64,000 bases of DNA from Geobacteraceae bacterium (lineage in GTDB: Bacteria; Desulfobacterota; Desulfuromonadia; Geobacterales; Pseudopelobacteraceae): the NCBI GenBank assembly GCA_013336525.1, contig JAAXTM010000002.1, forward strand, positions 558,001 through 622,000, given 5' to 3'. Each line of letters opens with the position of its first letter. The first letter of the stretch is position 1. The notes beneath the pieces are model-generated. The model worked only from the letters and a program-made list of their open reading frames with translations. It searched no databases and was not told the origin of the DNA. Shown one piece after another: positions 1 to 45,236 of this stretch. The translations under genes were made by a program, and so were the position numbers.

Positions 1-2134
1 AAAGCAATTGCATAATTATTTGCTTAAGTTGTTTCCGCTGTGCAAAGGATGCCTGTAGACGAAGCGGATGCCAAGGGCAGACAATTGTGGCGCTACCTTC
101 ACCTAAAGCTGGAGGGATTTGAACAACTCCGATTTGCATGACAGGCTTCAGAAGACGCCGCCGATGAGATTCATTCGGGATTTTTGAGATGTATTCCACA
201 AGGCTGCCAAATAGATCTGCAAGCAAGTCACTATCTATTGGAAATAATTCACTGGTTGCTAGCGATCGAATGCTACCAGTGTATTCACCGTTAAATCGGT
301 CAAACAACACCTTTGCTTCTGCTGCCCAATCGCTAGAGATAGTACCCTGTTGAAGTGCTTCATCCACTTCTTTTTTCCACTTGGAAACTAGGCTATATGA
401 CTTTGCCTTAGATTTTGCGGGTACGAATGAACCTTTCCCACTCGCTCCAGTCTGAAATCCAGCTGTTTGCAGAAGGCTAATTGGTGCGGGAACACCTTTT
501 GCTCCTGCTGCATCTCTATCTGCGTGGCATTCAATGAGAGCACTTCTGGCTACATTTTCCGCTAAACGGTCTAGATCCTCAAGATATTCAGAATATACTG
601 ACCATAATGGAAACCGCCAAGTTAGTTTATGTTCCGAGACTATTGAAAAAGTACCTTCTTCTTTTGCTTGAATTCGTACTGTGAATTCAAAGGAATTAGC
701 CACTTTTGAAGATGAATTTTTCTTTTGAATATGCGGTAAAACCTTCTCAGTGAACGCAGTTGTTAAGGTTTCTTTGAAAAAAATCAGATTTGGTAAGAAA
801 GTTTCAAGTTGCTTGTATTGATGCTCAAAAAATTTACACGCCCGAAAATTCATACTTTTAAAATTGTTGGGCTTATTTTGTTTATGTCCGATTAGGAGAA
901 TTGAAAGCTGTCGGCCCTTGTACTCTGAACCGCCTGATGATTGCTCTAGGCATTCAATGATCCCTTGGAATAAATCCTCGCAGGTTATCTCTTTGTCATA
1001 AATCTCTTTCTCCCAACGACGGTAAACTGAAGGATCTACCTCTAGGGTCAAGCGATGTTGATCAAAAAAATCGCGCATTTCATCAGAATCAACCAACTTT
1101 CGCTTTGTATCCAGTCGGTCAAGCATGTCCTCGTCATCAATGTTTAATTCAAGTCCCTCAGCAGTGAAAACCCGTTTCGTTGCTTCGCCTAACCTTTGAG
1201 ATACCTTCTTCTTTTGTCGGCTTAATATTGCTGAAACGGAGGGCCAATCATAGGTAAGAAATAAGTTTTTGCTGGCAGGTGACCTTTCAGGTTTTGATGA
1301 AGCATATTGAAGAAAAGCTTCACGTAGCGATTGATCTTGTAATGGTCCGTCTTCTTCATATTTTTGGAGTGCCTCTTCCAAATCTTGAGTTTCAAGGAGA
1401 TTTAACCTGTCATCACGTTTTCGAAGATAGCTTTCGTTTCGCCAGTGGCTTTCTAATTTCTTTGACCACCCCGAAGGCTGGGTAGCAATTACTTTGTCAA
1501 ATAGCTTGTCAAAACGAGGAACAGAAAGGATTGGCAAATGTCTACCTGCCAGATTTTGAAGGGAATCGTTCCGAGCACCTTTAAATACTTCCCATAAAAA
1601 CAGTGCTGCAACGGATAGGCTTACTCTATGGAGGCTAAAGAGTGCTTGCACGAGTGCTATAGCCTGGGCATCTTGGTCTGGGGAACCGAAAGCCCGCTCA
1701 TGCAATACAATTGGGCTGAGCTCCTTGAAAGCTTCTACCCAGTGGCATGCATTTGCCCGCTCCTCCAAATCCTGAGCCTCAAGACTCGAAGTTGATCCAC
1801 TGGACTGAGTTTCATGCTCAAATTCAGATGAAATATAAAAATAACCGTTCGTCGGCCATCCTCTTACCTCCACTGCATTAACATCTGTTAGATGTCGGGT
1901 TTCAAGATCAAACTCTTTCATCTCCTCACGGTTCAAACAAAAACGTAGAGTCTTTGGACGATCACCATCAGCTTCAGAAGCGTTTACCAGTGCTGCAACC
2001 ATATCCTTCTCAAACCTAGAAAGAATCATGTTGCCTTCGGGTAGTAAGTCTGATTGGTCGGAAACTATTTTACCCTTCAGTAAGCGGTAAGCTACCATTC
2101 CGATAAATCTTGTTTCTATTTTTGCCTGGGACAT
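1..2134 (-). CDS. Partial DptH-like protein of a phosphorothioation-type restriction module (N-terminal 711 codons)
   Basis: An open frame runs from an ATG at 2134 (MSQAKIETRFIGMVAYRLL) to the left edge with no stop; it starts 33 bases after the upstream gene ends. No enzyme motif is visible in the 711 codons present. The last visible part contains the segment ATIVCPWHPLRLQASF; a PxHPLR-type segment is remembered from DptH/DndH-family and HerA-linked proteins, whose ATPase domain comes later in the chain. Known DptH proteins are about 1700 residues, so more than half may be missing here. The DptH call rests mainly on position (third after two DptF/DptG-like genes) and this short motif, so it is tentative. 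It is certainly a real gene: the frame is open for 2.1 kb and co-directional with its neighbours. Confidence 0.55.
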   Translation of the reverse strand, partial: MSQAKIETRFIGMVAYRLLKGKIVSDQSDLLPEGNMILSRFEKDMVAALVNASEADGDRPKTLRFCLNREEMKEFDLETRHLTDVNAVEVRGWPTNGYFYISSEFEHETQSSGSTSSLEAQDLEERANACHWVEAFKELSPIVLHERAFGSPDQDAQAIALVQALFSLHRVSLSVAALFLWEVFKGARNDSLQNLAGRHLPILSVPRFDKLFDKVIATQPSGWSKKLESHWRNESYLRKRDDRLNLLETQDLEEALQKYEEDGPLQDQSLREAFLQYASSKPERSPASKNLFLTYDWPSVSAILSRQKKKVSQRLGEATKRVFTAEGLELNIDDEDMLDRLDTKRKLVDSDEMRDFFDQHRLTLEVDPSVYRRWEKEIYDKEITCEDLFQGIIECLEQSSGGSEYKGRQLSILLIGHKQNKPNNFKSMNFRACKFFEHQYKQLETFLPNLIFFKETLTTAFTEKVLPHIQKKNSSSKVANSFEFTVRIQAKEEGTFSIVSEHKLTWRFPLWSVYSEYLEDLDRLAENVARSALIECHADRDAAGAKGVPAPISLLQTAGFQTGASGKGSFVPAKSKAKSYSLVSKWKKEVDEALQQGTISSDWAAEAKVLFDRFNGEYTGSIRSLATSELFPIDSDLLADLFGSLVEYISKIPNESHRRRLLKPVMQIGVVQIPPALGEGSATIVCPWHPLRLQASFAQRKQLKQIIMQLL

Positions 2135-5660: not shown

Positions 5661-6485
5661 CTAAAGTTGACAAATCAAGCAACCTTCACGGATAGGTGGT
5701 TCATAGTCCATGCCAGCAAGTATAGACGCTAAAGGAACATTTTTTCTTCTTTGGCGTTGTTTTGCTTGGACTTTTTCATGATTTTCTATGATCTGCTGCA
5801 TTCTTTCAGGTCGCTCCAGCTCTGCGAGCGATTCCTCTTTGCTCCAGAAGAATATATTCCCGTTTACACGGTTTGGTTTTTCGTAAGCCTTAGCCATTTC
5901 ATAATATTCAGGATGCTTTTGCTTCAACCTGACCCATTCGATTTTTTGTTGATAAAAGCAAAAATAGCAGCCTGAGCGACTGCGTCCCCACTCAGTATAC
6001 TTAGGTAGGCCAACACCCGACTCGATTAAGATTTTGACAACATCCTCGTACGCGATTCCATCAGTACGAAAAGGAAAGGATGGTATTATGTTTGGTTTGT
6101 GACTTATGTAACCGACTCGGTCTTCATCTGATCGTATTCCTATATAATTAATACATTCATCGCCACCAACATAATCCTCAAATGGTTTAAGTTTCATCAT
6201 GCTCGTGCACCATCTTCTATGATTCGATGGGAGCATGCCACCATATCGTCTCAATAAATCGTCGAAGGTTGTGCCAAAAGTAGTGCGAACAACCTTGGTG
6301 CCCAAATAACCCTCAAGTTTTTCCAAATATTCGTATGTTTCCGGTAGCTCTTTACCGCTGTCATGGAATATGTATTCCATCCCTTCAACACGATCTCGCA
6401 TGTAAATTGCGAGGGCGGCAGAATCCTTACCACCGGAGAGGCTTAGGATGTGTCTTACCTTATTCCTTCCTATTATGTCAGACAT
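5661..6485 (-). CDS. Compact DndC-like PAPS-reductase-family PP-loop enzyme
   Basis: 274 residues. The PP-loop ATP pyrophosphatase motif SGGKDSAA is at residues 17-24, and five well placed cysteines follow: RRWCTSMM (Cys93), SGCYFCFY (Cys173, Cys176) and GCLICQL at the extreme C-terminus (Cys269, Cys272). This cysteine set could hold a [4Fe-4S] cluster, as in DndC, which activates or transfers sulfur during DNA phosphorothioation. It is much shorter than DndC (about 500). BrxP of type 4 BREX is another PAPS-reductase-fold relative. The cell's true sulfate-assimilation PAPS reductase is unlikely because of the neighbours (defence-type ATPases) and lack of other cys genes. Lies 20 bases after the big ATPase gene and 10 before the DptF-like gene. 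Confidence 0.8.
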   Translation of the reverse strand: MSDIIGRNKVRHILSLSGGKDSAALAIYMRDRVEGMEYIFHDSGKELPETYEYLEKLEGYLGTKVVRTTFGTTFDDLLRRYGGMLPSNHRRWCTSMMKLKPFEDYVGGDECINYIGIRSDEDRVGYISHKPNIIPSFPFRTDGIAYEDVVKILIESGVGLPKYTEWGRSRSGCYFCFYQQKIEWVRLKQKHPEYYEMAKAYEKPNRVNGNIFFWSKEESLAELERPERMQQIIENHEKVQAKQRQRRKNVPLASILAGMDYEPPIREGCLICQL

Positions 6486-9500: not shown

Positions 9501-9889
9501 GCCCTAATCTCTGTTTCCCGAATCCCACGCAAAACACACGTCCGAAGTGGTTCTAGATCACCTGTTACCAGGATAGGTTCCAGTTTTACTCGTTCGCCAT
9601 TCCAGCTTTGTAGTTCCGGAGGTAGTTTCTCATCATGACCTGCTGCTACGCGTGCCAATGCCAGCGCAAAGCTTGATTTACCTGTACCATAATCACCAGT
9701 TAGTCGCCAGGCACGTTGGGAAGAAGCATGTTGAAGTCCGCTCGACACTCTTTGTAGTGTTTCGCGGACCAAGTTTGTTACTACATAGTGTTCACTAGAC
9801 CGTGGGTCATCATAATCTACTGCCACATCAACCGAACGAAGAAACGCAGGTCGGACTCGAAAAAGACTCGCAATACATTGAATATCCAT
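6506..9889 (-). CDS. Large P-loop ATPase, BrxC/PglY-sized, DUF4007-associated
   Basis: 1127 residues. Walker A GDYGTGKSS is at residues 65-73 and a Walker B strand LLIVLDELG at 166-174, placing the ATPase domain at the N-terminus; the remaining 900 residues are helical with no motif recognised. Architecture and size resemble BrxC/PglY ATPases of BREX loci, but no PglZ or PglX accompanies it. The start ATG overlaps the DUF4007 stop codon by one base (TGATG at 9887-9891), so the two proteins are probably made together and may act together. A run of Ser-Glu-Ser-Glu-Ser-Asp near residue 435 (about 8585-8620) looks like a flexible linker. Likely role: motor or remodelling subunit of the modification half of the system; this is inference. 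Confidence 0.75.
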   Translation of the reverse strand: MDIQCIASLFRVRPAFLRSVDVAVDYDDPRSSEHYVVTNLVRETLQRVSSGLQHASSQRAWRLTGDYGTGKSSFALALARVAAGHDEKLPPELQSWNGERVKLEPILVTGDLEPLRTCVLRGIRETEIRAFGNSSGLYSADSNEEILNHLDRLGDRIRTEKIGDGLLIVLDELGQNLRFAAQHPEADDIFLLQRLGERAARSNGKPFMVLALLHQGFASYSAAADAIAKKEWDKVAGRFEEIVFAQPVEQTAVLLAETLGLQETHLPDKVRSLMREMMHRAITCGLYGSLAAEEYLISLSPRLFPINPIVLPVLVALLRKFGQNERSIVSFLTSFEPFGLRAFAERVSIDGKLYRISDLYDYFRSNLSQLGSGPSRARWDVAESVVDKGAGYGETAERLLKSTAILNMIDDPALPSTREVLLASESESESDAEDTIERLVSELRLLHERGTAKGLSLWPHTSANLEDLLRQADEAIGGREPLASTLLDYLPERNLVARRHYVETGNLRHFSVQYVQVMNAEQALQNAVDQDSADGTIVVIIPFSIEEQRAADQLAQFQTLPKHVICGVSDPVAGMTHLISEVKRWEWVRSNARELSFDQFALDYVRDEIERLKAALHRELQFLTDFIVDRKRPIHWFNNGIEIQVEEHRGIAGYLSAVCDELYYKCPIVLNELINRRVTSAAASRARTLLIEAVANRSTENCLGFDCDRNPPELAIYLSVLKEGRLHVQDGELWRFIQFSELTEDPCRLAPSLKRIHELLLEADLDRVEVNRIYDELRRVPFGVRDGLLPLLVAVYLAGHWQETSVYEDGSFLLKVGGEEFQRLNKEPEMFSLQHSSVSGVRLAVYEQLAKALGTNTNQRPDVLTVVRPLVSFAVSLPEFVQHAREVLTPRSRKVRDLLFATRQPVTLLFKELPEALGFPIVKTENFTDDQISELVTGLTEAIAELRNAYPALMYRIRAGLQDAFSLKGDFDEFRKILATRSAKIADHIYDLDFKAFVLRLGDSALSSTQWIESVATLVAKKSPERWRHTDESIFFENLESLVPRFLRVESVHFNNATVAGDELSRRVRLTVTQSDGSEVQEVLSWKPEDDELLENLKTSLRSLIGEHGKIALAAAAGLLWQQDGQN

Positions 9890-10839
9890 CAGGCATCCCT
9901 CTTGTATGCTTCAGACAGAAGAAGCTTAAGGCTACTCAATGGTTGCAGCCGTTGTATGACCCGTTGGTTTGCACCTTCCAAGACTGTGAACTCCTTAGGT
10001 CTATTTTGAGCCAACAGAACTAAACGATCTCGAACTTCCGCTTCAGGCATCCGAAACACTCGACCTGGACTGCATCGCCCAAATGCGATGCTTGAAAATA
10101 AGACGGTTTGGTCATCTCCTGCAAAGCTGTTCCACCAGTCGTGCAAACAGTACCTAAAAAGTTCATTTGGAATTGAGTTTTTTTTCTGAACGTCTATAGA
10201 ATATAATGGATCACGACCACGGTCTCCGCGGCGCTCCCCGAACTTTCTAATGAAGCCAAGGCTCGACAGTGGGCTATCCAACAGGTCTTCGGGTAGGCGA
10301 CCCGCAACGCTTTCAGAAGCTACGTAGGTTCTCAGGAATACGTCCAGATGCTGTCGCAGAGTAGTCTCAGATAACGATCTTGGGTATGTGTCTGTCTCGG
10401 CTTGGAAAGCCTTTAATGCCTCACTGAAAGTGAACTCTGGCTCATGGCACATATTAATAAGCCAGTGCCACGCAAAGAAAGGTCGTGATGTATTGGTAGA
10501 CGCCCTCCAGTGCAGCAGCCAAATAGTTCGCTGATCTTCTAGAAAAGGATCAGCACCATAAGTACCGAAGATTGACTCCCCAAACTCAGTTACCTGCCAG
10601 CAGCCGTCCTGGCGAAAAATCACTCCGAAGTATTCACTCCAGCACTCCAGAGCCATCACCATATTCTTTCCCAATCCCAATAGTCGCATTCCATCTCTAG
10701 GATTAGTAAAGGGGTCTTTCCCTTGGGACACAGCTGACACTGCTTTGGGAAGCCAAGCTACTCGTAACGGAAAAGTCTCATGGCCGGAAAACGAAAAACG
10801 CTCGGCCTGATGTTCATTATTATTTGAACTTTTTTGCAT
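9889..10839 (-). CDS. DUF4007 family protein
   Basis: 316 residues. The N-terminal signature FSFSGHETFPLRVAWLPK (about residues 15-32) matches the remembered DUF4007 hallmark sGHesF-x-R-x2-W-x-K. The rest is helical, with possible winged-helix character in the middle (LGLGKNMVMALECWSEYFGV, residues about 52-71). DUF4007 proteins are uncharacterised but recur beside PAPS-reductase-like and large ATPase genes in defence islands; I recall this from comparative genomics, not from any search. Here it is upstream of and one base overlapped with the 1127-residue ATPase gene. A DNA-recognition role for the modification complex, filling the place of DndB or DndE, is a guess. Confidence 0.8.
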   Translation of the reverse strand: MQKSSNNNEHQAERFSFSGHETFPLRVAWLPKAVSAVSQGKDPFTNPRDGMRLLGLGKNMVMALECWSEYFGVIFRQDGCWQVTEFGESIFGTYGADPFLEDQRTIWLLHWRASTNTSRPFFAWHWLINMCHEPEFTFSEALKAFQAETDTYPRSLSETTLRQHLDVFLRTYVASESVAGRLPEDLLDSPLSSLGFIRKFGERRGDRGRDPLYSIDVQKKNSIPNELFRYCLHDWWNSFAGDDQTVLFSSIAFGRCSPGRVFRMPEAEVRDRLVLLAQNRPKEFTVLEGANQRVIQRLQPLSSLKLLLSEAYKRDA

Positions 10840-10864: not shown

Positions 10865-11080
10865 TTAAGCCTTCTTTTGTTCTTGTCTAATTTCTAAGTC
10901 TGCTGCACCACCGACTTTAACCCATTCATCTACTTCATCTCTTTTGAATTTCCAAAGGCGTCCCATACGGTGGGCAGGCATGCCATACCTCTCTCTCCAA
11001 CGGTACACAGTATCGCTACTGACACCAAGGTATTTGCCTATTTCATCTACCGATAACCAGCGGTCTTCCATCTCGGCCAT
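10865..11080 (-). CDS. Small excisionase-type helix-turn-helix protein heading the cargo operon
   Basis: 71 residues, one MerR/Xis-like winged HTH: WLSVDEIGKYLGVSSDTVYR followed by RMGRLWKFKRDEVDEWV. This 'DNA-binding domain, excisionase family' fold is common both in true excisionases and as the first gene of defence operons. It is 25 bases upstream of the DUF4007 gene, co-directional, and starts from ATG at 11080 with AGGAA nine bases upstream. Because it is far from the recombinase and at the head of the cargo operon, an autoregulator of the operon is more likely than the excision factor of the element, but the latter cannot be excluded. Confidence 0.8.
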   Translation of the reverse strand: MAEMEDRWLSVDEIGKYLGVSSDTVYRWRERYGMPAHRMGRLWKFKRDEVDEWVKVGGAADLEIRQEQKKA

Positions 11081-24094: not shown

Positions 24095-26098
24095 TTACCT
24101 CGACTGCATCGGCTGCTTCTGGCCGCTGGAACAGATATTGTCCTTGCCTGCCAGCCTGAGCGTCTGAATGACCGTGGCAGCCTCGGCAAACTCGTTGATG
24201 CACTGGCAATCGATAACGATTTCTTCTCCCGGGTCGGCAGGACAGCTGTTGTTGATGCAGGTCTTGTAGAAAATGTCATAGGACTGTGCCGGTACCCGCA
24301 TGTCAGTGACATTTCCGGTCGTCGTCACCTGGGTGTCGGTCTTGGCGATGCGTGTTTTGCAGGCCACTTCACATTCGGACGCCGGGTCCCGTTGCGGCAG
24401 GTTGATGCTACCGTTGGCAATGTTCCACCCCGTAGGGCCGAGTCGTGGGTCCTGAAACGTCAGATTCGCTGTGTTGTCGCTGGCAGAAGAGACCACCTTC
24501 CCGAAACGGGTCGCCACATCAGAGAAGTCGTATTGCTGACTGCCGCAGACGTACGTACGCTTCTTGTGCCACCAGTCCCGGCAGATCTTGTTGGTACCCA
24601 CCTGGCCGGTGAAGTTCTTACAGGAAGGGAGCGGGTTGAAGCCGGTCGGATTGAAGTTCTGGTAGGTCACGACTCCGTCGATATCTTCTTCCTTCAAGCG
24701 ACAGTCCGGATCGTTGGCCAGGGTGGCACACTTGTCCTCAACCCCCTCGGTGTAGGCGTCCTCTTTGAATTCGAAAAAATAGCTCCAGTCGAACGAGACA
24801 CCTTGAGCACCCTTTGCCGGACAGACAATGCCGGTCTGGACTGACGTGTCGAATCCGTTGATGACTCCGTCTACGGATGCCGAAGCGGAATTGCAGCCGC
24901 CGCCACTCATGTTGTTCATGTTGAAGGTAGCGGACATGAGCTGGCCGAGCTTGGCCGGGTCTGGTGTGGACACAGTGACGGGTTTAACTGTATGCCAGCC
25001 ATCTCCGCCCGGACTGCCGCCGCAGTTGTTGTGGGCCGCTCCCGGTCCTCCGGGGCCGGTATCCAGGTATTCCAATTGATAGGTTAGATCATCGACCTTA
25101 TGAACCCGTATGTAGACCAGGTGATCGGTACAAAGTGCACTGCTTCCTGAGTCGTTGAAGGACGTGGTGGTAGTATCAACACGGCCAGCCCGGTCAACCG
25201 TGCAGATGCTTGACTTGCCCTGAGCCTCCCGGGCCGCACCCGAGTTGGAGATCATGTAGTAGAAACTGCTCGGGTCGGATGATTGGGAGATGGCAGCAGA
25301 ATCCCGAGCTGCCGTCAACTGGGGCCAGTTGGTGTAATACCCCGTCAGGGTATCCACTGTTGGGGAGGAAGCGAATGCCGCGACACTCGTGGCGGCATTG
25401 TTCGTTTTGGTGGTCACTTGCCCGTAATAGGTAATGGTGGTGATGTCGGTATTGACGTTGGTAATGGTGAAGGAGGTATTGCTGGTATGAACTGCATTGA
25501 CAATACCCCCACCGATATCCTTCAACACGATGGCGCTGTTGACCCAGACCAGGTTGCTGCCACAACTGCTGTTGATGCAATAGCAGCCACCGAGATCGGT
25601 AATGGACGCCGGTGCTTCAGTGACCCGGCCATCAGCATCGGCGGCCCACGTATAATATTTGCAATTCGTCCAGCTACCGGCATTACAGGAGATGAAGCCG
25701 TTGGCGCAGACCCCTGACACAAGCGACGGCACAGCGTGAACATTGTCGATGGTGCCATCAGTGTTTAGATCCTGGCTGACGATAACCTGCTGCAGGTCAC
25801 CGGTTCCTGACGGCTGTATCATCACCTCCAGGAATTTTGCCGATGAGGGGGCGTTCAGGGTTGCCGGGAAGCTGGTAGCGCCGTTCACCGTCTGCATGAG
25901 GTTCGATGAGTTGGTCATCGGCAACGAGATGTTGCTGTTGACAGAATTCTTACTGCCGAACCGGGAGAGCGCCGACTGACCGGCATTCTGGCCAGCGGTC
26001 TTCCCATCGATTCCGAAGGCAGACGTGCTGCCTAACGTCACAGACATCATCAGACTAACTGCGGTATTTCTTGACCATCTCACGGATTGCATCCTCAT
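24095..26098 (-). CDS. Large secreted protein of the transfer operon, unknown
   Basis: 667 residues. The ATG at 26098 overlaps traC by 44 bases but gives a full signal peptide (RSVRWSRN-like basic start, then TAVSLMMSVTLGSTSAFG); a shorter start at 26050 would lose it. The mature protein has scattered cysteine pairs (GGCYCINSSCGSN; CKNFTGQVGTNKICRDWW; VIDCQCINEF) and Thr/Ser-rich stretches typical of surface proteins. It sits between traC and traN, five bases from traN. It may be an N-terminal part of a split TraN function or a separate adhesin; no family was recognised. Confidence 0.65.
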   Translation of the reverse strand: MRMQSVRWSRNTAVSLMMSVTLGSTSAFGIDGKTAGQNAGQSALSRFGSKNSVNSNISLPMTNSSNLMQTVNGATSFPATLNAPSSAKFLEVMIQPSGTGDLQQVIVSQDLNTDGTIDNVHAVPSLVSGVCANGFISCNAGSWTNCKYYTWAADADGRVTEAPASITDLGGCYCINSSCGSNLVWVNSAIVLKDIGGGIVNAVHTSNTSFTITNVNTDITTITYYGQVTTKTNNAATSVAAFASSPTVDTLTGYYTNWPQLTAARDSAAISQSSDPSSFYYMISNSGAAREAQGKSSICTVDRAGRVDTTTTSFNDSGSSALCTDHLVYIRVHKVDDLTYQLEYLDTGPGGPGAAHNNCGGSPGGDGWHTVKPVTVSTPDPAKLGQLMSATFNMNNMSGGGCNSASASVDGVINGFDTSVQTGIVCPAKGAQGVSFDWSYFFEFKEDAYTEGVEDKCATLANDPDCRLKEEDIDGVVTYQNFNPTGFNPLPSCKNFTGQVGTNKICRDWWHKKRTYVCGSQQYDFSDVATRFGKVVSSASDNTANLTFQDPRLGPTGWNIANGSINLPQRDPASECEVACKTRIAKTDTQVTTTGNVTDMRVPAQSYDIFYKTCINNSCPADPGEEIVIDCQCINEFAEAATVIQTLRLAGKDNICSSGQKQPMQSR

Positions 26099-28502
26099 AA
26101 CTCACTCCGCCATCAACCATTGCCTCTATTTCAGTTATCTCGCTCGCATCAGACGTGAAGACGTAGTAGGAGAAAGGATCTACGGCCAATCTGCCGACTC
26201 CGACGCCGAAAGGAGTGTCCATGAAGATCTCCGAGTACTTGGGCTTGTTGCTCTTCGTTGACTTGAGAATCCGCATGGTAAAATCGTCGTAATCCATCAG
26301 CTTCTCGTCCAGAGCCTTCTCGAAGTCGGACGACTCCAGATAGAATTTGAAGGCCGAGTTATTCCGGATGACATCGCCAACCCCGCCGAAGAGCTTCATG
26401 TCGAGTACCGACTGGGTGATTATGGTGAAACTGCCATGGTATTTGCGGGCACGACGGTACCCTTCCTCAATGACCTCCTTCAGGGTCGAACTCTCTCCAA
26501 GGAATTGCCATGCCTCATCAAAAACGATCAGTCGCTGATCCGACTTGTCGGAGAGATAGAGATCCTGGGTTACGGCATTGATCACCTGAAGGGTGACTAC
26601 CCGGAACAGTTCCTTACGGGACTTGAGGTGCTCCAGTTCCAACACCACGAACTCATCATTGGAGATGTCGAGACTGCTTTTGCCGTTGAAGAAACGGCCA
26701 AATGTTCCGTCGCTCTTGAAGTCGGCCAGGTTAAAAGCAAGCCGGGAAGCAGCCTCCTTGATCTCGCCACCCTCTGACGAGTAGTGGTCGAAATTGAACA
26801 GGTACTCGTGGACGGTATCGATATCTGCATCGTTGCCCTTCTGCTGCCAGGCCCAGCGCACCGCTCCCTTGATGAGGGTCATCTCTGTCTCGCTGGGGAT
26901 GGTTTTTCCGGTGGAAAAGACCATCTGGGCGACGATGGGAGCGATAACCGGGATGTCGTACTCGGGATCGATGATGTTGGTGAAGGGGTTCAAGCAGACC
27001 TGGGAGTCCTCGCTGAAGTCCAGGTAGCGGGCACCGAACAGCTTGGTCATCTTCTTGTAGGACCCGCCGATGTCGATGATCCGGATTTTCGATTTCATGG
27101 CGAAGTAGTTGTAGACCAGATAGTTGATAAAGAAGCTTTTGCCGGCGCCGCTGGAGGCGCAGACCATGGCGTTGTGGTTGTTGACTCCCTTGTTGAAGAT
27201 GTCGAGACCGAACAGATTTCCCTTGCGTCCGGCGAAGAGCATTACCGGTTTGCCCAGTCCGGAGAAGTCCCCCTGTACCGGTAACATCACGGCGATACTG
27301 TCCACGGGGAGAATATGGTCCCGGTCAAGGGTGTCGATGTTGCTGCCGTGGTCGTAGAGACCGAATGGCAGGGAAGAGATGAACAGGATGGGAAGAATCC
27401 CCTTATCCTCCTGCATGACATACCCTTGCCCCTCCCAGACCCGCTTGGCCCTGGTGACGGACTCGTTTACCAGCCATTCGTCGCTGCCGTAGACCCACAT
27501 GATAGGAATTACCCGGTAGAATTTGGTGCCCCGTTCCAGTTCATCAACCGCCCAGAGGTACTCGTCTTTCTTTCTGGCCAGCGATGGGGCGAAACTGCCG
27601 ACACCCTGCTGCTGCAGGACCATGTTGCATTTGGTGTGGAGTTTATTCTTCTGGTTCCTCAGGACGATATTCAGCGTAAAGAAGAATGGCGTCCGGATCT
27701 GATCGGAATCGGTAGCCATCCCCATGATTCCACCAAAGAGTTGGTTGGTCTGAATCGGGTCGCCATTTAGAGGGAATGACTTCGGGGTGACGCAGCGGAA
27801 GTGTCGAGAACCGAACTTGAGAGAAGAGAACCTTTTCTCTACCTTGGTCCCGAGCAGTACCTGCTTGCGGATGATATTGCGATCATCATAGTGGCTGCTA
27901 TTTGCAGACGGGTCCTCATTCAGCATGCGTCTCAGCCAATCCAGCAAGTTCCCCGGATTGACAACAACCGGTGATAAGCCGGCGCCACGCAGCACTTCCT
28001 GGATTGTTCCGAACACTTCATCAAGATTTACATGAGCACTATCCTTCACCGGAAACTTGACCGTAAAAAACATCCTGAAGTTTCGGATCGGAATACCGCT
28101 CAGACAGCCGAGGCCTTCCACACCTTCCTGAAAGAAGCGGGACACGTTGTCAGAAACATCGCGTACCAGTTTGCTGTCGCGCAATTTCATGGAAGTGTAA
28201 GTGTCCACAATCTGATTCACAAAGGGGTCGGCAAACAGGATGAACTGCATGATCGAGCCATCAGGCAGGTTTACACGGAACAACCCCTCCAGAGTCCTGA
28301 TGGTAGTCTCACAGGCAAAAGCCAGGGGAGCACACTCCCACATCATCCCGAAGGTGTTGTCAGTGTTCAGATAGATCTGATTCTTGGGGTCATGGGCAAT
28401 CCACGGGAAATATTCGGAAAAATTGTCTCGTTCGGTGAGGCGGCGCAATTCGCTCCTGGTGAAGCCTCCTCCACTTCCAAACAACGCTGACGCTACTCCC
28501 AT
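26055..28502 (-). CDS. traC: TraC, F-type secretion ATPase (VirB4 family)
   Basis: 815 residues. Walker A VCASSGAGKSFFINYLV lies near residue 450 and Walker B RLIVFDEAWQFLG near 660, with the TraC-F N-terminal domain before them (GMMWECAPLAFACETTIRTL). This cytoplasmic hexameric ATPase powers pilus assembly and associates with TraL at the membrane; traL is encoded upstream. It starts two bases after traV's stop region and its 3' end overlaps the next gene. Confidence 0.92.
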   Translation of the reverse strand: MGVASALFGSGGGFTRSELRRLTERDNFSEYFPWIAHDPKNQIYLNTDNTFGMMWECAPLAFACETTIRTLEGLFRVNLPDGSIMQFILFADPFVNQIVDTYTSMKLRDSKLVRDVSDNVSRFFQEGVEGLGCLSGIPIRNFRMFFTVKFPVKDSAHVNLDEVFGTIQEVLRGAGLSPVVVNPGNLLDWLRRMLNEDPSANSSHYDDRNIIRKQVLLGTKVEKRFSSLKFGSRHFRCVTPKSFPLNGDPIQTNQLFGGIMGMATDSDQIRTPFFFTLNIVLRNQKNKLHTKCNMVLQQQGVGSFAPSLARKKDEYLWAVDELERGTKFYRVIPIMWVYGSDEWLVNESVTRAKRVWEGQGYVMQEDKGILPILFISSLPFGLYDHGSNIDTLDRDHILPVDSIAVMLPVQGDFSGLGKPVMLFAGRKGNLFGLDIFNKGVNNHNAMVCASSGAGKSFFINYLVYNYFAMKSKIRIIDIGGSYKKMTKLFGARYLDFSEDSQVCLNPFTNIIDPEYDIPVIAPIVAQMVFSTGKTIPSETEMTLIKGAVRWAWQQKGNDADIDTVHEYLFNFDHYSSEGGEIKEAASRLAFNLADFKSDGTFGRFFNGKSSLDISNDEFVVLELEHLKSRKELFRVVTLQVINAVTQDLYLSDKSDQRLIVFDEAWQFLGESSTLKEVIEEGYRRARKYHGSFTIITQSVLDMKLFGGVGDVIRNNSAFKFYLESSDFEKALDEKLMDYDDFTMRILKSTKSNKPKYSEIFMDTPFGVGVGRLAVDPFSYYVFTSDASEITEIEAMVDGGVSYEDAIREMVKKYRS

Positions 28503-34127: not shown

Positions 34128-35420
34128 TCATCCTCGCTGGTGCCGTCTAGCGAGATCTTTTAGGGGCCCTGGTTCCAACCCCTCGAAAACATATGGATTC
34201 AATATCTGATTTCCCCACATCAAATTTCGATCAACTTCGCTTAACGATGCATTGTCACAGACAGTCGACCAATTCTGCTCGATGCACGTTATCTGTTTAG
34301 CGATAATGTCGACGGCCTCCTCTTCAGAGAGGAGAAATTGCGGAGCGGCAGCAATGCAGGTGGTGATCCGGCTTGACCGATCTTCTCCCGCGATCAGCAT
34401 TGCCTGTGTGGCGGTTTGCCCATGGCGACCCTGTGGGCAGATATCGTATGCAGGGGTTAACATCAACATCTGCCCATCCCAGAAAGCTGCATGATTGCGG
34501 GCGTGGTCGTCAGTATTGCCAACTAGGATATTGAACACGATGCGGGAAAACAGTTCGCGCAATGTTCCGGGAGCATTTCTGAATTTACTCCGGATAATTT
34601 CGGCCAACGTTTCGTAGCTTGCGTAACGGGCCATCATCTCATCCAGAGTCAACATCGTCAGTGCCGAAACCAGGCTCTTGCGCTGCCACCCGTTGGCCGT
34701 TGCCATCCGATCAAAACGTTCAACAAGTAGCACATCCTTACCGGCGGCACGTTCCAGAGAGACCGGCGCCACATCAATGCCAGCCATGGCAGCTAGTCTC
34801 ATTGCGACATACTCTGCTTTGACGACGGAGTAGAGGTCGGTGGAAGTGGAAAATTTCGCTATAAATTTCCGGGAATCGCTTTCTATGAGGGCCTTGGGGC
34901 GCGCTCCACCGATAGAGGTGCCATGCTGAAGTGCCTGGGCAAGCTCAGGAGTTAGCGGAATACCCTTCTCGACACGCTCGGTCGCCTCAATCAGTTCTTC
35001 AATGGGGGCTCCTGAGGCATATCGTGGCTCGTACTGCGTAGGCGATAGCTGGAAATCCAGGGCGCCTATCCGGTCGGACCCTGACTCGATAAGGTAACTG
35101 AGTTCGTCGAGTGCTGCCGGATCGATTCCTGATGCTTTATTTCCGAACTTCTTGTTCAGTATTACCCTGCGTCCCCAGGCATCAGGAGCCGCATCCCGCA
35201 GACATCCAGGAATAGAAAGTCCAGAAAGGAGAGGAAGTAGCCCCTGACGCAGGGGAAGTTCAGCGTCGTAAATCGGTATAGCATTGCCGCGCTGAAGATA
35301 GCTTTTACCGTAGTTGAAGACATATGTCGTCCCTACGGCCGTAAGCATCCCGGCAACCACCGGTTCTGTCTCCCCAGGGAGCCAGATCCAGACATATATT
35401 TCTTTGTAATCAGAATTCAT
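34128..35420 (-). CDS. hipA: HipA family serine/threonine kinase toxin
   Basis: 430 residues. The HipA N1 domain (MLTAVGTTYVFNYGKSYLQR) is followed by the kinase core with the P-loop-like GTSIGGARPKAL, the catalytic loop ILVGNTDDHARNHAAF (Asp in TDDH) and the Mg-binding LTPAYDICPQ. In E. coli HipA phosphorylates glutamyl-tRNA synthetase to stop growth; here it forms a module with the upstream HTH gene, overlapping it by 11 bases. On an integrative element such a module would help retention. Confidence 0.92.
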   Translation of the reverse strand: MNSDYKEIYVWIWLPGETEPVVAGMLTAVGTTYVFNYGKSYLQRGNAIPIYDAELPLRQGLLPLLSGLSIPGCLRDAAPDAWGRRVILNKKFGNKASGIDPAALDELSYLIESGSDRIGALDFQLSPTQYEPRYASGAPIEELIEATERVEKGIPLTPELAQALQHGTSIGGARPKALIESDSRKFIAKFSTSTDLYSVVKAEYVAMRLAAMAGIDVAPVSLERAAGKDVLLVERFDRMATANGWQRKSLVSALTMLTLDEMMARYASYETLAEIIRSKFRNAPGTLRELFSRIVFNILVGNTDDHARNHAAFWDGQMLMLTPAYDICPQGRHGQTATQAMLIAGEDRSSRITTCIAAAPQFLLSEEEAVDIIAKQITCIEQNWSTVCDNASLSEVDRNLMWGNQILNPYVFEGLEPGPLKDLARRHQRG

Positions 35421-36962: not shown

Positions 36963-37844
36963 TCACATTCCGCCAGCGAGTGAACGGAATCCGCGGGCAT
37001 TCGCAAATTCCGGAACCGGCAGGACGATTACCTCAATATTCTTTGCCGGAAAGCCATCCTTGAGCAGTGCGGCTCCGCCACCAAACAGCAATACCCGGTC
37101 GAAATCGGCATGCATTCCAACGTGCGCCTGCAACTCTCCCTGGACATCCCGAAGGATGTGCTCGATGTAGGCAACGCCGGCATCGCTGATTTCTCTTCTG
37201 ACATCGTGTCGCTCGAATCCGTATTGCAGATAACCCTTCTCGATCAGGAAAGCTATTTCGACCGGGGTAAAAGTGCCGGAAGGTGCCAGGTCCTTGATGC
37301 GTGGCAGCAGATAGCTGGTTGCCATTTGGTGAACACCCCGTTTGTTGAGGGTCTTGCCGTAGATGATCTGTCTTTTCTGAGGAGAAAAGAGCGTAAAGAT
37401 GATGGTGTTGAATCCGATGTCTATTCCCAGCACGTTGCCTTCAGGGCGTTCCTCGACATTATCCAGGTAATCCCTGAGTCCACCGAGTCCTTGCGGGAAT
37501 ATGGCAACGTCAGTGACGAGCGCTCCAGTCAATGCCTTTGCTAGGGCCGGAACCGCTCCGCCAGGTTTGTTTTGATCCTGCCAATAGGAATATGGCAGAC
37601 CAACGGCGAGTGTTACTATCCCTTCTGCTCTCGCCGCCTTGAAACAGTGTCCAACAAATTCTGGATAAAACCTTACAAGCTCTTCCATTGTTTTCAGGTA
37701 GGACGACCCTGATGACAACAGAGCTTCTTCGCCTAACAGCAGGTTTTCACCGTCATACCTGAATGCGGAAATAATTCTCCCCTTACGATCCTCATACATC
37801 CACTTCGCCGACGAAAATCCCAGATCACAAACCAGCACTCCCAT
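36963..37844 (-). CDS. parM: ParM/StbA-like actin-fold partition ATPase
   Basis: 293 residues from the ATG at 37844 (AAGGAGG seven bases upstream). The actin-fold motifs are in order: phosphate-1 VLVCDLGFSSAKW at the start, phosphate-2 VLGIDIGFNTIIF (about residue 165) and the adenosine motif VLLFGGGAALL near 258. It polymerises to push DNA copies apart in plasmid segregation. With ParR downstream and a repeat-rich region upstream, this is a complete type II partition locus, unusual for an integrated element. Confidence 0.88.
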   Translation of the reverse strand: MGVLVCDLGFSSAKWMYEDRKGRIISAFRYDGENLLLGEEALLSSGSSYLKTMEELVRFYPEFVGHCFKAARAEGIVTLAVGLPYSYWQDQNKPGGAVPALAKALTGALVTDVAIFPQGLGGLRDYLDNVEERPEGNVLGIDIGFNTIIFTLFSPQKRQIIYGKTLNKRGVHQMATSYLLPRIKDLAPSGTFTPVEIAFLIEKGYLQYGFERHDVRREISDAGVAYIEHILRDVQGELQAHVGMHADFDRVLLFGGGAALLKDGFPAKNIEVIVLPVPEFANARGFRSLAGGM

Positions 37845-37860
37845 GATTGCCTCCTTGGAG

Positions 37861-38051
37861 AATATTTTGGGGAACAAAACGTCCCCTACACCTATAATCT
37901 TGCGGGGGGGAAGGTGAAGGAGACGTTTTTGGGGAATATTTGGGGGAATATTTAGGTTCCATTCAATTATGGACCCTTTTTCGGTACCTTTTTGTTCCCC
38001 TAAAAAGGCTCCTTACCTCTGTTTGCGATACATGGAGAACTTTTGTTCTCC
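37861..38051. repeat. Candidate parC centromere: repeated GGGGAAYA words and a hairpin
   Basis: Between parM and the next upstream gene: TTTTGGGGAACAAAACG (37866 on), TTTTTGGGGAATATT and TGGGGGAATATTT (37926-37952), and the inverted TTTTTGTTCCCC (37989-38000). A perfect 7-bp stem GGAGAAC-TTTT-GTTCTCC sits at 38034-38051. Clustered short repeats upstream of parMR are typical of centromere sites bound by ParR, which also represses the operon. The repeats are read directly; the role is inferred. Confidence 0.6.
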
Positions 38052-41999: not shown

Positions 42000-42692
42000 A
42001 TGTCAAGCCAAAATCTTCAAAATGATGATAATTTGATTGAAACTATCATCGAAAAGCTGAAAAAAGCCCTTGATCTGAAGAATGATACGGATGTCGCAAA
42101 AGCGCTAGAAAGCGACCCAAGGCTGCTTGGAACCTGGAAAAAACGGGGAACAGTTCCGTACGATAAAATCATCAAATTGTGTATCAGGCATAACATCAAT
42201 TTGCAGTGGATTTTCTCAGATGATAGTTCTCTTCCGACGGTGTGCCGTGACAATGGACTTGTCTCGGAGGCTGATGGCTACGTCCGGGTTCCTCGTTACG
42301 AGGTAAAGGCCAGTGCTGGCGGAGGTGCAATTATTCATAGCGAACAGATTGTAGATCACTTGTATTTCAAGACAGAGTGGGTAAAAAATGTGTTGGGAAT
42401 CCCCAGGGATTTTCTGGCACTCATTTCAGTTCAAGGCGATAGCATGGAGCCTACCCTGAGCAACGGCGATCTGATCTTGATCGATGTCCGGACGTCGAAG
42501 GTTGAAGATGGCGCTATATACGTTGTGCAATACGACGATGCCTTACTTGTGAAGCGTCTTCAGAAGAAGTATGACGGCTCTGTTGTGATCCGAAGCGATA
42601 ACACCCTATACGAGCCTGAAATTCTGCATGGGGAAGAGGCGTTAAATCTTAAGATCGTCGGTAGGGTGGTTTGGGCCGGCGGGGTGATTTAG
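42000..42692 (+). CDS. CI/LexA-like S24 repressor
   Basis: 230 residues from ATG 42000 (AAGGA eight bases upstream); an ATG at 41991 is less well placed. A CI-type N-terminal HTH (DTDVAKALESDPRLLGTWKK) is followed by the cleavage linker KASAGGGA and an S24 peptidase domain with ALISVQGDSMEPTL (Ser148) and DDALLVKRL (Lys185). RecA-stimulated self-cleavage in DNA damage would relieve repression, so excision and transfer are probably SOS-controlled. The recombinase gene starts 15 bases downstream on the same strand. Confidence 0.9.
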   Translation: MSSQNLQNDDNLIETIIEKLKKALDLKNDTDVAKALESDPRLLGTWKKRGTVPYDKIIKLCIRHNINLQWIFSDDSSLPTVCRDNGLVSEADGYVRVPRYEVKASAGGGAIIHSEQIVDHLYFKTEWVKNVLGIPRDFLALISVQGDSMEPTLSNGDLILIDVRTSKVEDGAIYVVQYDDALLVKRLQKKYDGSVVIRSDNTLYEPEILHGEEALNLKIVGRVVWAGGVI

Positions 42693-42706
42693 ACAGGAAT
42701 GACGGG

Positions 42707-44209
42707 ATGAACGTTGGGATATGGATAAGGGTATCAACAGAAGACCAGGCGCGGGGAGAATCGCCAAAGAATCATGAAGCCCGTGCTCGGATGTATGCAG
42801 AACTCAAGAGATGGAACATAGTAGACCTGTATGACCTGTCAGGTGTTTCAGGCAAGGATGTCCTTGACAATCCTGAAGCCAAGAGAATGCTTGATGACGT
42901 AGCCGCTGGTCGAATACAGGCTCTTATCTTCTCAAAACTTGCTCGCCTTGCCCGCAACACCAAACAACTCCTCGAAATCTCCGACTACTTCCAAAAGCAC
43001 GATGCTGCACTCGTAAGCCTTGAAGAGAGTATTGACACATCCTCTCCTGCGGGCAGACTCCTCTATACCGTTATCGGCGCATTGGCTCAGTGGGAGCGTG
43101 AGGAGATCTCTGCCCGTGTCGCAGCATCAATTCCTATCAGGGCAAAGTTGGGAAAGAATACTGGTGGAAAAGGGGCCTTCGGTTATCACTGGGTTGATGG
43201 AAAGATCGTTCCCAATCCGGATGAAGCTCCAGTTGTCAAAAGGGCATACCAAATATTCCTTGAAACCGGCAAGCTGCTCACCACCTGTAATCAACTTAAA
43301 GATGAAGGGCTCTATTCAAGGAGCAAGAAGGTTTACAGGCCGACATCTCTCAAGCGGCTTCTCTCGGATACAATCTACAAGGGCATACGCAGAGCCAACT
43401 ACGCAAAGAGTCTTGGTAACAAGAAGAATTGGGTGCTGAAACCGGAGTCAGACTGGGTTTATACCAACGTGCAACCGCTGGTGTCGGAAGAGGACTGGGA
43501 CGCAGCGAATAAAATCTTTGAGGAGACTGCTCGACGATACACATCATTCAAATCGGTTCCAAAGGTTGGAAGGTTTTTGTTTTCAGGAATATTGAAATGC
43601 CAGTGCGGAGAAAAACTGTACGTTGCTCCATATCCGTCGATGAAGATTCCCCGTTATGCTTGCAAGAAATGTGGGATGAGAATCAACGAGGACATCATCG
43701 AGGATAACTTCCAGAATGCCTTGAAGGAGGTGGTTGTCGCACCTGAACAGCTTGGTGCCAACGAAGATCTGGAAAAAGAATTGGTGGAAAAGCAGGAGAG
43801 ACTTGAACTGCTGAAGAAAGAGCAGAAGGAAGTAAACGGGAAAGTTGATGTTTTGATCGACTTGTACGGTAAGCAGGTACTTGATCAAAACGGGTTCAAA
43901 GAAAGATACGATCCGATTAAGACCAGGCTTGACAACATTACCCTGGAGATCCCCCGCCTGCAGGCAGAGATTGATTTCATCAAAACAAATGAGATTGCCA
44001 AGTCGTATGTAATCGAGAGAGCAACTACGCTGGCGTCACTGTGGCCTTCGTTGAGTTATGAGGCTAGGCAGCAAGTCGTGAAAGAACTTGTCGAGAGGAT
44101 TGATGTCGGCGAGGATTCCCTTCATTTTGTCTTCTTTTATATCCCTTCGTTCGCGCCAGTAGAGAAAGGTTCACACATCTCCAGGGGTTCATGGCAGCCA
44201 CCAGCATGA
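42707..44209 (+). CDS. Large serine recombinase (integrase of the element)
   Basis: 500 residues from ATG 42707. The resolvase-type catalytic domain holds [10 protein letters not shown] (nucleophile Ser10) and [18 protein letters not shown] with the conserved arginines; a 'recombinase' domain follows, then a zinc ribbon ([20 protein letters not shown] followed by CKKCGMRI) and a coiled coil (about 355-440). It lies at the element's right border with its last codons in comM DNA: the stop TGA at 44207-44209 is host sequence. It catalyses integration into, and with a directionality factor excision from, comM. Runs in line with the CI-type repressor gene. Confidence 0.95.
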
Positions 44210-45236
44210 CTCTGGCCGGATAGGTCAGCGACAGAAGCGAGCGGGAAATGGTAACTTTACCATCCTCAATCGGTTGCCTGAGGACTTCGAGAACATTTTT
44301 CTTGAATTCAGGCAGTTCATCGAGGAACAGCACGCCGTTGTGCGCTAGCGAGACTTCTCCCGGCTTCGGAGTCGTGCCGCCGCCTATTAATCCAACATCG
44401 GAGATTGTATGATGCGGTGACCTGAACGGCCTGACCGCCAACAGAGCGCGTTCTTTTTCAAGCATGCCGCTGACACTGAAGATCTTGGTGGTTTCGATAG
44501 CTTCGTCAAAGGACATGCGCGGCAGGATCGTCGGGATACGGCGGGCAATCATCGTCTTTCCTGAGCCGGGGGGGCCTATCATCAGAATATTATGGCTTCC
44601 GCTCGCGGCAATTTCCAGTGCGCGCTTAGCATGCTCCTGACCCTTGACCTCGCTGAAATCCTCTCCGTATTCACAGCCGCTGGCAAACAGCTCCTGCAGA
44701 TCTACCCGGCACGGCTCGATGATTTCACGACCACTCAGAAACTCCACCACCTGGGAAAGGGACGTGGCGCCGATGACATCAATTCCTTCGACAACTGCCG
44801 CTTCGGGGGCGTTTTCCGCCGGAAGGATCAGGCCGGCAAGACCGGCACGCTTTGCGGCAACAGCCATCGACAGCGCACCCCTAATCGGCTTAAGCCCGCC
44901 ATCCAGCGACAGCTCCCCCAGCAGGATATAGTCATGCAATCGCGGCCCCTTGACCACGCCGGTGGCGGCGAGGATGCCGATCGAGATCGGCAGGTCGTAG
45001 GCGGTCCCCTCCTTCTTGATATCAGCCGGGGCCAGATTGGCGGTAATACGCCGGGGGGGGAAATCGTACCCGGAATTTTTCAATGCCGCCTTGACGCGAT
45101 CCTTGCTCTCCTTGACCGCACCGTCCGGCAGACCGACAGTGGCAAAGGCGGGGAGGCCGGGGGCGATATCAACCTCGACATCCACCAGAATGGCATCAAT
45201 TCCGATCAGGGCACTGCTGAAAACTTTTGCAAGCAC
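44064..45236 (-). pseudogene. comM: comM (YifB, Mg-chelatase-like AAA helicase), 3' truncated by the element
   Basis: 390 residues, of which the first 349 or so are ComM (usual length about 505): opening [20 protein letters not shown], a Lon-like domain, and the AAA part with [15 protein letters not shown] and [10 protein letters not shown]. The frame then crosses the junction after AAMNPW and ends in about 40 unrelated residues coded opposite the recombinase 3' end. The C-terminal AAA lid and Cys motif (CPCG) are lost. ComM is a branch-migration helicase in natural transformation, so the host is probably reduced in transformation while the element is integrated. Confidence 0.93.
44182..44192. 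other. attL junction between element and comM
   Basis: On the plus strand, GGGGTTCATGGCAGCCACCA from about 44184 onward is the complement of the comM codons for VAAMNP. Left of it the sequence departs from the expected CPCG codons. The crossover therefore lies in CAGGGGTTCATGG. Serine recombinases use a two-base core, which cannot be fixed without the left end. Confidence 0.75.

Follow-up and report, generated by a model that had tools for sequence, protein, structure and literature searches.

What is the short PP-loop enzyme encoded at positions 5661-6485 of this DNA, where would it obtain its sulfur, and why does it end in a CxxC motif? The stretch analysed, hereafter the window, comprises 64,000 nucleotides from a Geobacteraceae bacterium (G000:C15:558001-622000) and was read together with the stretch to its left (L002). 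An earlier, sequence-only reading had taken the protein for a half-length DndC with five candidate cluster or persulfide cysteines and no cysteine desulfurase nearby. Much of that description holds up: the open reading frame encodes exactly 274 residues, on the minus strand (the earlier reading gave no strand), the SGGKDS PP-loop is found at residues 17-22, and Cys93, Cys173 and Cys176 were rightly seen as those of a DndC/PAPS-reductase-like PP-loop enzyme, a set that would match the one in relatives holding a 4Fe-4S cluster. The protein has six cysteines in all (93, 111, 173, 176, 269 and 272), and the five candidates, including the two in the terminal GCLICQL, turn out to be exactly the conserved ones; Cys111, which had gone unmentioned, is a cysteine in just 12 of the 89 SspD sequences aligned below.

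The comparison of 274 residues with about 500 for DndC, by contrast, concerned the wrong family. The protein aligns with positions 1-276 of the 277-position PADLOC profile for SspD, so that its length is normal, and this end-to-end alignment excludes a truncated or half-length DndC. DndC models cover just residues 82-121 (E=1.6e-4), the BrxP model matches only distantly (E=1.8e-9), and Pfam returns the PAPS_reduct domain alone. The protein likewise has neither the length of about 500 residues with a full-length DndC model match nor a pair like DndC's Cys262/Cys273. Nor do the neighbours point to a BREX type 4 system: among 15 proteins scanned none matched PglZ or BrxL, while the sspC product also matches the related BrxC model (1.4e-107). 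Judging from these profile matches, the protein is almost certainly SspD, the ATP-pyrophosphatase of single-strand DNA phosphorothioation, and as such of a known kind.

The sulfur donor appeared to be absent because the window is cut before sspA. An SspA of 378 residues is encoded just off the left edge, directly after sspH, whose end the gene overlaps by 4 bp, and two further SspA relatives are encoded in the genome. The earlier proposal that sulfur has to come from a host IscS or another donor is thus unneeded, and recourse to a host desulfurase for want of an operon copy is excluded.

Table 1. Features of the ssp operon and of SspD. Positions are those of the window unless another stretch is named; the alignment counts refer to the 89 SspD rows of alignment A2.
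Feature	Position	Strand	Evidence
Small excisionase-type HTH protein	10865..11080	minus	PADLOC mads_1 E=1.9e-15; Pfam HTH_17 E=3.6e-14
sspB (DUF4007)	9889..10839	minus	PADLOC SspB E=3.4e-97; Pfam DUF4007 E=5.6e-60
sspC, ATPase, 1127 aa	6506..9889	minus	PADLOC SspC 1146.9 bits, E reported as 0
sspD, PP-loop ATP pyrophosphatase/PAPS-reductase-like, 274 aa	5661..6485	minus	PADLOC SspD PDLC02782 E=1.3e-110 over residues 11-273; Pfam PAPS_reduct E=8.3e-12
SspD PP-loop SGGKDS, residues 17-22	6420..6437	minus	S17, G18, G19, D21 and S22 invariant in 89 rows
SspD Cys93 codon (RWC motif)	6207..6209	minus	Cys in 89/89 rows
SspD Cys173 codon (CYFC, first Cys)	5967..5969	minus	Cys in 89/89 rows
SspD Cys176 codon (CYFC, second Cys)	5958..5960	minus	Cys in 89/89 rows
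SspD Cys269 codon (terminal CLIC, first Cys)	5679..5681	minus	Cys in 88/89 rows
SspD Cys272 codon (terminal CLIC, second Cys)	5670..5672	minus	Cys in 88/89 rows
sspF, 618 aa	3794..5650	minus	PADLOC SspF E=4.1e-146
sspG, 538 aa	2168..3784	minus	PADLOC SspG E=2.9e-138
sspH, N-terminal 711 aa in the window	1..2134, crosses the left edge, ends L002:16691	minus	PADLOC SspH E=5.3e-101 (window part), 3.6e-291 (L002 part)
sspA, 378 aa	L002:15558-16694 = G000:C15:553557-554693, about 3.3 kb past the left window edge		PADLOC SspA E=5.7e-94, DndA 2.8e-92

The genes of the window lie colinearly on one strand in the order HTH-sspB-sspC-sspD-sspF-sspG-sspH, with gaps of at most 33 bp, and the excisionase-type HTH protein is likely the operon regulator. 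SspH, read in two pieces across the window edge, has a C-terminal FtsK/SpoIIIE domain (Pfam FtsK_SpoIIIE, E=1.1e-27). By gene content, all components of the published SspABCD-SspFGH kind (PMC8092258) are present, and the locus is a complete SspABCD-SspFGH DNA-phosphorothioation defence locus. According to that paper, SspBCD together with either IscS or SspA introduces phosphorothioates into one strand at CCA, while unmarked DNA is damaged by SspFGH. The likeness to the system of Vibrio anguillarum FF-93 described there extends to sspB, C, D, F, G and H in one operon and to an SspH with the same C-terminal domain. FF-93 relies on iscS, in place of which our locus has a dedicated sspA after sspH; a further difference is that a Mrr nuclease, a GHKL protein and a receiver-like protein also follow here. 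The SspDs of V. cyclitrophicus FF75 and E. coli 3234/A (PMC8092258) belong to the same family as that of the window, and the gene order B-C-D-F-G-H-A is repeated on a Sphingomonas paucimobilis plasmid, where a tyrosine recombinase and a TIR gene come next.

The surroundings point to a mobile carrier. The yifB/comM gene is split, with C15:602163-603224 covering profile positions 1-354 and C15:460330-460791 covering 345-499, a serine recombinase (window 42671-44209; XisF model, E=4.3e-32) lies at the right junction (window 42671-45236), and an F-type TraC-like gene is found between the two halves (window 26055-28502; 528.4 bits, short of the cut-off of 567). From these three features, and on a partial reading of the stretch, we infer that the ssp operon is apparently cargo of an integrative conjugative element of about 141 kb inside yifB/comM. 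A HipA-like protein (window 34128-35420) and a ParM-like actin homologue (window 36963-37877) were also seen, both as weak matches below the model cut-offs.

Beyond sspA lie a Mrr-type nuclease, then an ATPase protein with two GHKL domains, then a receiver-like protein. The Mrr-type restriction endonuclease, whose gene separates sspA from that of the GHKL protein (L002:14628-15524; Mrr_cat, E=2.3e-16), is a possible additional effector. The GHKL protein (HATPase_c_3 and HATPase_c) and its partner occupy L002:10270-14594 (C15:548269-552593), downstream of sspA; the partner is receiver-like by eye and has no Pfam match. Relatives of the GHKL protein occur in 27 of 80 SspD loci, equally at E<=1e-5 and at E<=1e-3, and 23 of these 27 are without detectable sspF, sspG or sspH, which is a weak statement since divergent copies and short flanks escape detection. 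In E. coli CV839-06, a cassette whose integrase lies next to tRNA-Leu unites sspBCD with a GHKL gene of this kind and a partner gene, the latter scoring weakly with Response_reg_2 (22 bits, below the cut-off of 27), and a further relative of the GHKL protein is present on an Acinetobacter record (compare the baumannii paper PMC12421847). The GHKL protein and its partner are possibly an alternative Ssp effector or regulator. Two TIR proteins are also encoded near the operon (L002:624-3718), one ThsB-like (E=2.1e-13) and one of the TIR-SLOG type (LD_cluster2, E=1.7e-59).

Is the terminal CxxC then a property of SspD at large? Alignment A2 comprises 89 rows, namely the SspD of the window, those of eight loci from the genome search and the viral contigs, and those of the best 80 of 546 confirmed genome-contig loci; being the best-scoring ones, these 80 favour close relatives, and the patterns with which they were searched exclude the tail. 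A C-x-x-C-x-x-end pattern is present in 88 of the 89 proteins, so that the outcome which would have refuted the earlier reading, a terminal CxxC not kept among homologues, did not occur. The linker before the tail (residues 229-264) is variable, with a mean majority-residue frequency of 0.41, 0.43 and 0.39 per 12 residues, and given this poorly conserved stretch the conservation of the terminal cysteines in the alignment exceeds chance. The penultimate residue is H, Q or S in 77 rows and the last one L, K or I in 83, with Leu or Lys final after C-x-x-C-x in 79.

The terminal CxxC was also present in all 13 further plasmid SspDs (13 of 76 plasmid records were fetched, ten of them picked since their alignment stopped before residue 269), in both E. 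coli SspDs read from among 25 E. coli records with a match, each of the two having all five cysteines, and in 15 of 15 complete viral-contig SspDs (L034-L037 and L119-L129, L034 and L035 being near-copies and the incomplete L038 uncounted). A search of the phylum gave matches in 58 of 395 genomes, some of which had their loci examined; 11 of the 12 loci at E<=2.3e-40 besides the window are tailed. Alignment A2 contains six of these 12, and L005, L008, L013, L014, L015 and L016 are tailed and outside it. The exception is L012/L220, whose operon also has sspB and sspC; no frame of the 240 bases beyond the gene encodes a tail, so that the tail may not be strictly needed. In that operon (L220:2184-9124), the tail-less SspD (L220:8330-9124) is followed by a 1503-aa protein, kinase-like by eye, and after it by a protein distantly similar to SspG (tblastn E=1e-7).

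The SspD homologues are accompanied by other ssp genes. A match to the window sspB or sspC lies within the same locus in 76 of the 80 genome SspD loci; of the other four, three begin close to the edge of the locus and the fourth, L091, shows no match in its 10 kb of upstream sequence. All 80 carry the tail; within the stretch covered, sspA was detected in 30 of them and undetected in the other 50, and the idea that it substitutes for a missing sspA is therefore unsupported. Furthermore, it is kept in SspDs near sspA, near SspFGH-type genes and near DUF262 (SspE-type) genes. At the least, conservation of the terminal CxxC in SspD is real in the sequences compared, and a role can be assigned to the motif conditionally. 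It has no description in the excerpts of PMC8092258, PMC10853773, PMC12707154 and PMC12839542. The locus is known in kind, and a description of the conserved cysteine tail of SspD was not found in a literature that was covered in part.

The same tail extends to phage. Among the IMG/VR contigs, 66 stand-alone viral loci (L130-L195) encode proteins with a median of 243 residues that are 29-37% identical to the window SspD. All three that were scanned match the phage PAPS-reductase family phrog_424, but so does the window SspD itself (E=5.1e-35), and phrog_424 therefore fails to separate SspD from its phage relatives. SGGxDS is present in 66 of 66 loci and a terminal CxxC in 65, while the combination of RWC, internal CxxC and terminal CxxC is found in 64 under strict reading and in 65 if RYC is allowed. 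These phage proteins thus have the five cysteines of SspD in common with it, but are shorter, and matches to the window sspB or sspC were detected near 0 of 66, compared with 13 of 16 other viral loci. Its retention across partner types, and in a phage clade without detectable sspB or sspC, suggests that the tail serves the chemistry of the enzyme itself and not one partner.

Among controls drawn from other PAPS-reductase-like proteins, unassigned to families, 19 of 20 have no tail: five of six named phage PAPS-reductase-like proteins (six of 52 phage records with a match), all three bacterial relatives (L019-L021) and all 11 complete proteins that match the SspD profile weakly. The last group counted 13, from which the cut L026 and the broken L030 were left out; in L018 and L022 the underlying match contained an internal stop. 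Of the five phage controls without the tail, four carry other cysteines close to the C-terminus (SCSESC in L214-L216, CFCR in L217), and the sole tailed control, L212, groups with the phage tail clade in the tree. In a further alignment (A3) of 55 hand-picked rows, comprising the window, 12 viral SspDs, 17 of the 66 phage loci and 25 of the 80 genome loci, just 24 columns never vary, those of all five cysteines included, an invariance that is conditional because the exceptions L012/L220 and L180 (and also L127 and L129) were left out. In a tree of 79 chosen rows, tailed and tail-less proteins each cluster, with 3 changes needed and none of 500 shuffles as low. The tail may have arisen once or more than once in this tree, several of whose deep branchings are unsettled and whose long branches fall together.

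A PDB sequence search found no SspD structure; the top profile match (E=3.3e-10), and the only PDB match of the single protein at E<=0.1, is 21fy chain C (PptA, 270 aa), whose alignment with SspD ends before the 21fy C-terminus. AlphaFold2 models of the window SspD and of a short-linker relative (SspD and phage rows together) have a core mean pLDDT of 87.7 and 89.0. In both, the tail stays below 50, and the models therefore give no geometry of the tail relative to the cysteine triad. The predicted core resembles APS reductase 2goy (Z 13.6, rmsd 3.7, 175 residues), 4Fe-4S LarE 8cp4 (Z 11.1, rmsd 4.2, 176 residues), NcsA 6scy (Z 10.9, rmsd 3.7, 154 residues) and TtuA 5mkp (Z 10.2, rmsd 3.0, 153 residues). 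PP-loop enzymes without sulfur chemistry score alike (for example NAD synthetase 1xng, Z 11.5; GMP synthetase 2vxo, Z 10.9), and as such the comparison supports the fold and not the function.

So what exactly could the tail do? The closest guides are DndC and the tri-Cys sulfur insertases. SspD has been treated as the equivalent of DndC (PMC10853773, PMC12707154), and the two have in common the PP-loop family, the RW-C and CxxC cluster motifs and a cysteine desulfurase partner (PMC12193691). By motif rather than by alignment, FRW-Cys146 and Cys280-x-x-Cys283 of DndC correspond to RRW-Cys93 and Cys173-x-x-Cys176 of SspD; in DndC, Cys146, Cys280 and Cys283 are common to APS reductase, while Cys262 and Cys273 are specific to DndC (PMC12193691). 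DndC differs in its 540 residues in E. coli B7A and in this extra pair before the CxxC, and the excerpt of PMC12193691 mentions no C-terminal CxxC, whereas SspD has no cysteine between 111 and 173, the stretch before its own CxxC. The LarE/TtuA enzymes have the PP-loop fold (SGGxDS in LarE), and LarE of T. maritima carries three conserved cysteines and is fed by a cysteine desulfurase (PMC9283937). Tri-Cys LarE accepts its sulfur from IscS and, in the model of its authors, delivers it to an adenylated substrate in the form of a noncore sulfide bound to a 4Fe-4S cluster (PMC9283937). These enzymes differ from SspD in their substrates, TtuA is fed by TtuB or sulfide, and a terminal CxxC arm goes unreported in the excerpt (PMC9283937). 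A subset of SspDs resembles BrxP in carrying an additional domain and a Cys-rich stretch (PMC12839542).

The explanation that we consider rather probable is a persulfide relay in which a cluster and a mobile tail cooperate; the family, the operon, SspA and the five cysteines are read from the DNA, and to these we add the chemistry conditionally. Cys93, Cys173 and Cys176 would hold a site-differentiated 4Fe-4S cluster beside the PP-loop, which would adenylate the DNA phosphate. A mobile C-terminal CxxC-x-L arm (Cys269/Cys272) would take the persulfide from SspA and hand the sulfur to the open iron of the cluster, or straight to the activated phosphate, at a site nicked by SspB and with SspC as the motor, after which SspFGH would attack unmarked DNA. 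The arm would play the part proposed for the extra Cys262/Cys273 pair in DndC, and because SspD is without that pair, the tail cysteines are its foremost candidates for a sulfur relay. A C-terminal catalytic cysteine acts in PAPS/APS reductases, to which the arm can also be compared. Since the SspD tail ends mostly in Leu or Lys, and not in a CysH-type motif, this comparison holds by position only. The route from SspA over SspD to DNA is itself called merely likely or plausible in PMC7188994.

The tail could instead be a structural or redox ligand, with one cysteine as the fourth ligand of the 4Fe-4S cluster or with the pair binding metal at the interface with SspB or SspC. That all five cysteines are conserved together is what one site would predict, and modelling of DndC places a fourth cysteine (Cys273), from a mobile loop, on the cluster (PMC12193691). 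We nevertheless consider a ligand role unlikely, if well worth keeping in mind: one ligand would not call for two conserved cysteines, LarE and TtuA function on three (PMC9283937), and the phage clade keeps its tail with detectable sspB or sspC in none of its 66 loci, which speaks against the interface version in particular.

A chemically inactive tail, serving solely as a docking or targeting signal for SspA, seems less probable still. Disordered C-terminal motifs are often docking peptides, and the last two residues of the tail are restricted as well. SspA and SspD form a complex (PMC7188994). Against this reading, the two cysteines are the most conserved residues of the tail. A docking peptide would usually tolerate changes from Cys to Ser. 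That the protein is an ordinary PAPS/APS reductase of sulfate assimilation, as its PAPS_reduct domain and APS/PAPS-reductase fold might invite one to think, can be practically dismissed: its SGGKDS PP-loop is intact, the PAPS reductase model PRK02090 gives 20.1 bits against a cut-off of 154, which leaves no CysH identity, and the gene is set in an ssp operon. With the CxxC on an apparently flexible arm, two point mutants would separate the persulfide-relay model from the cluster-ligand model.

A broader and more doubtful proposal is that SspD represents a mechanistic class distinct from DndC, defined by a tri-Cys cluster and a swinging C-terminal CxxC persulfide arm. This class would include the five-cysteine clade of phage 'PAPS reductases', which would transfer sulfur on their own, possibly to phage DNA or so as to mimic the Ssp mark of the host. 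If so, the phage five-cysteine genes would not be auxiliary genes of sulfate assimilation. As both kinds are annotated as PAPS reductase, the five-cysteine signature may help to tell SspD-type phage genes from those of sulfate assimilation.
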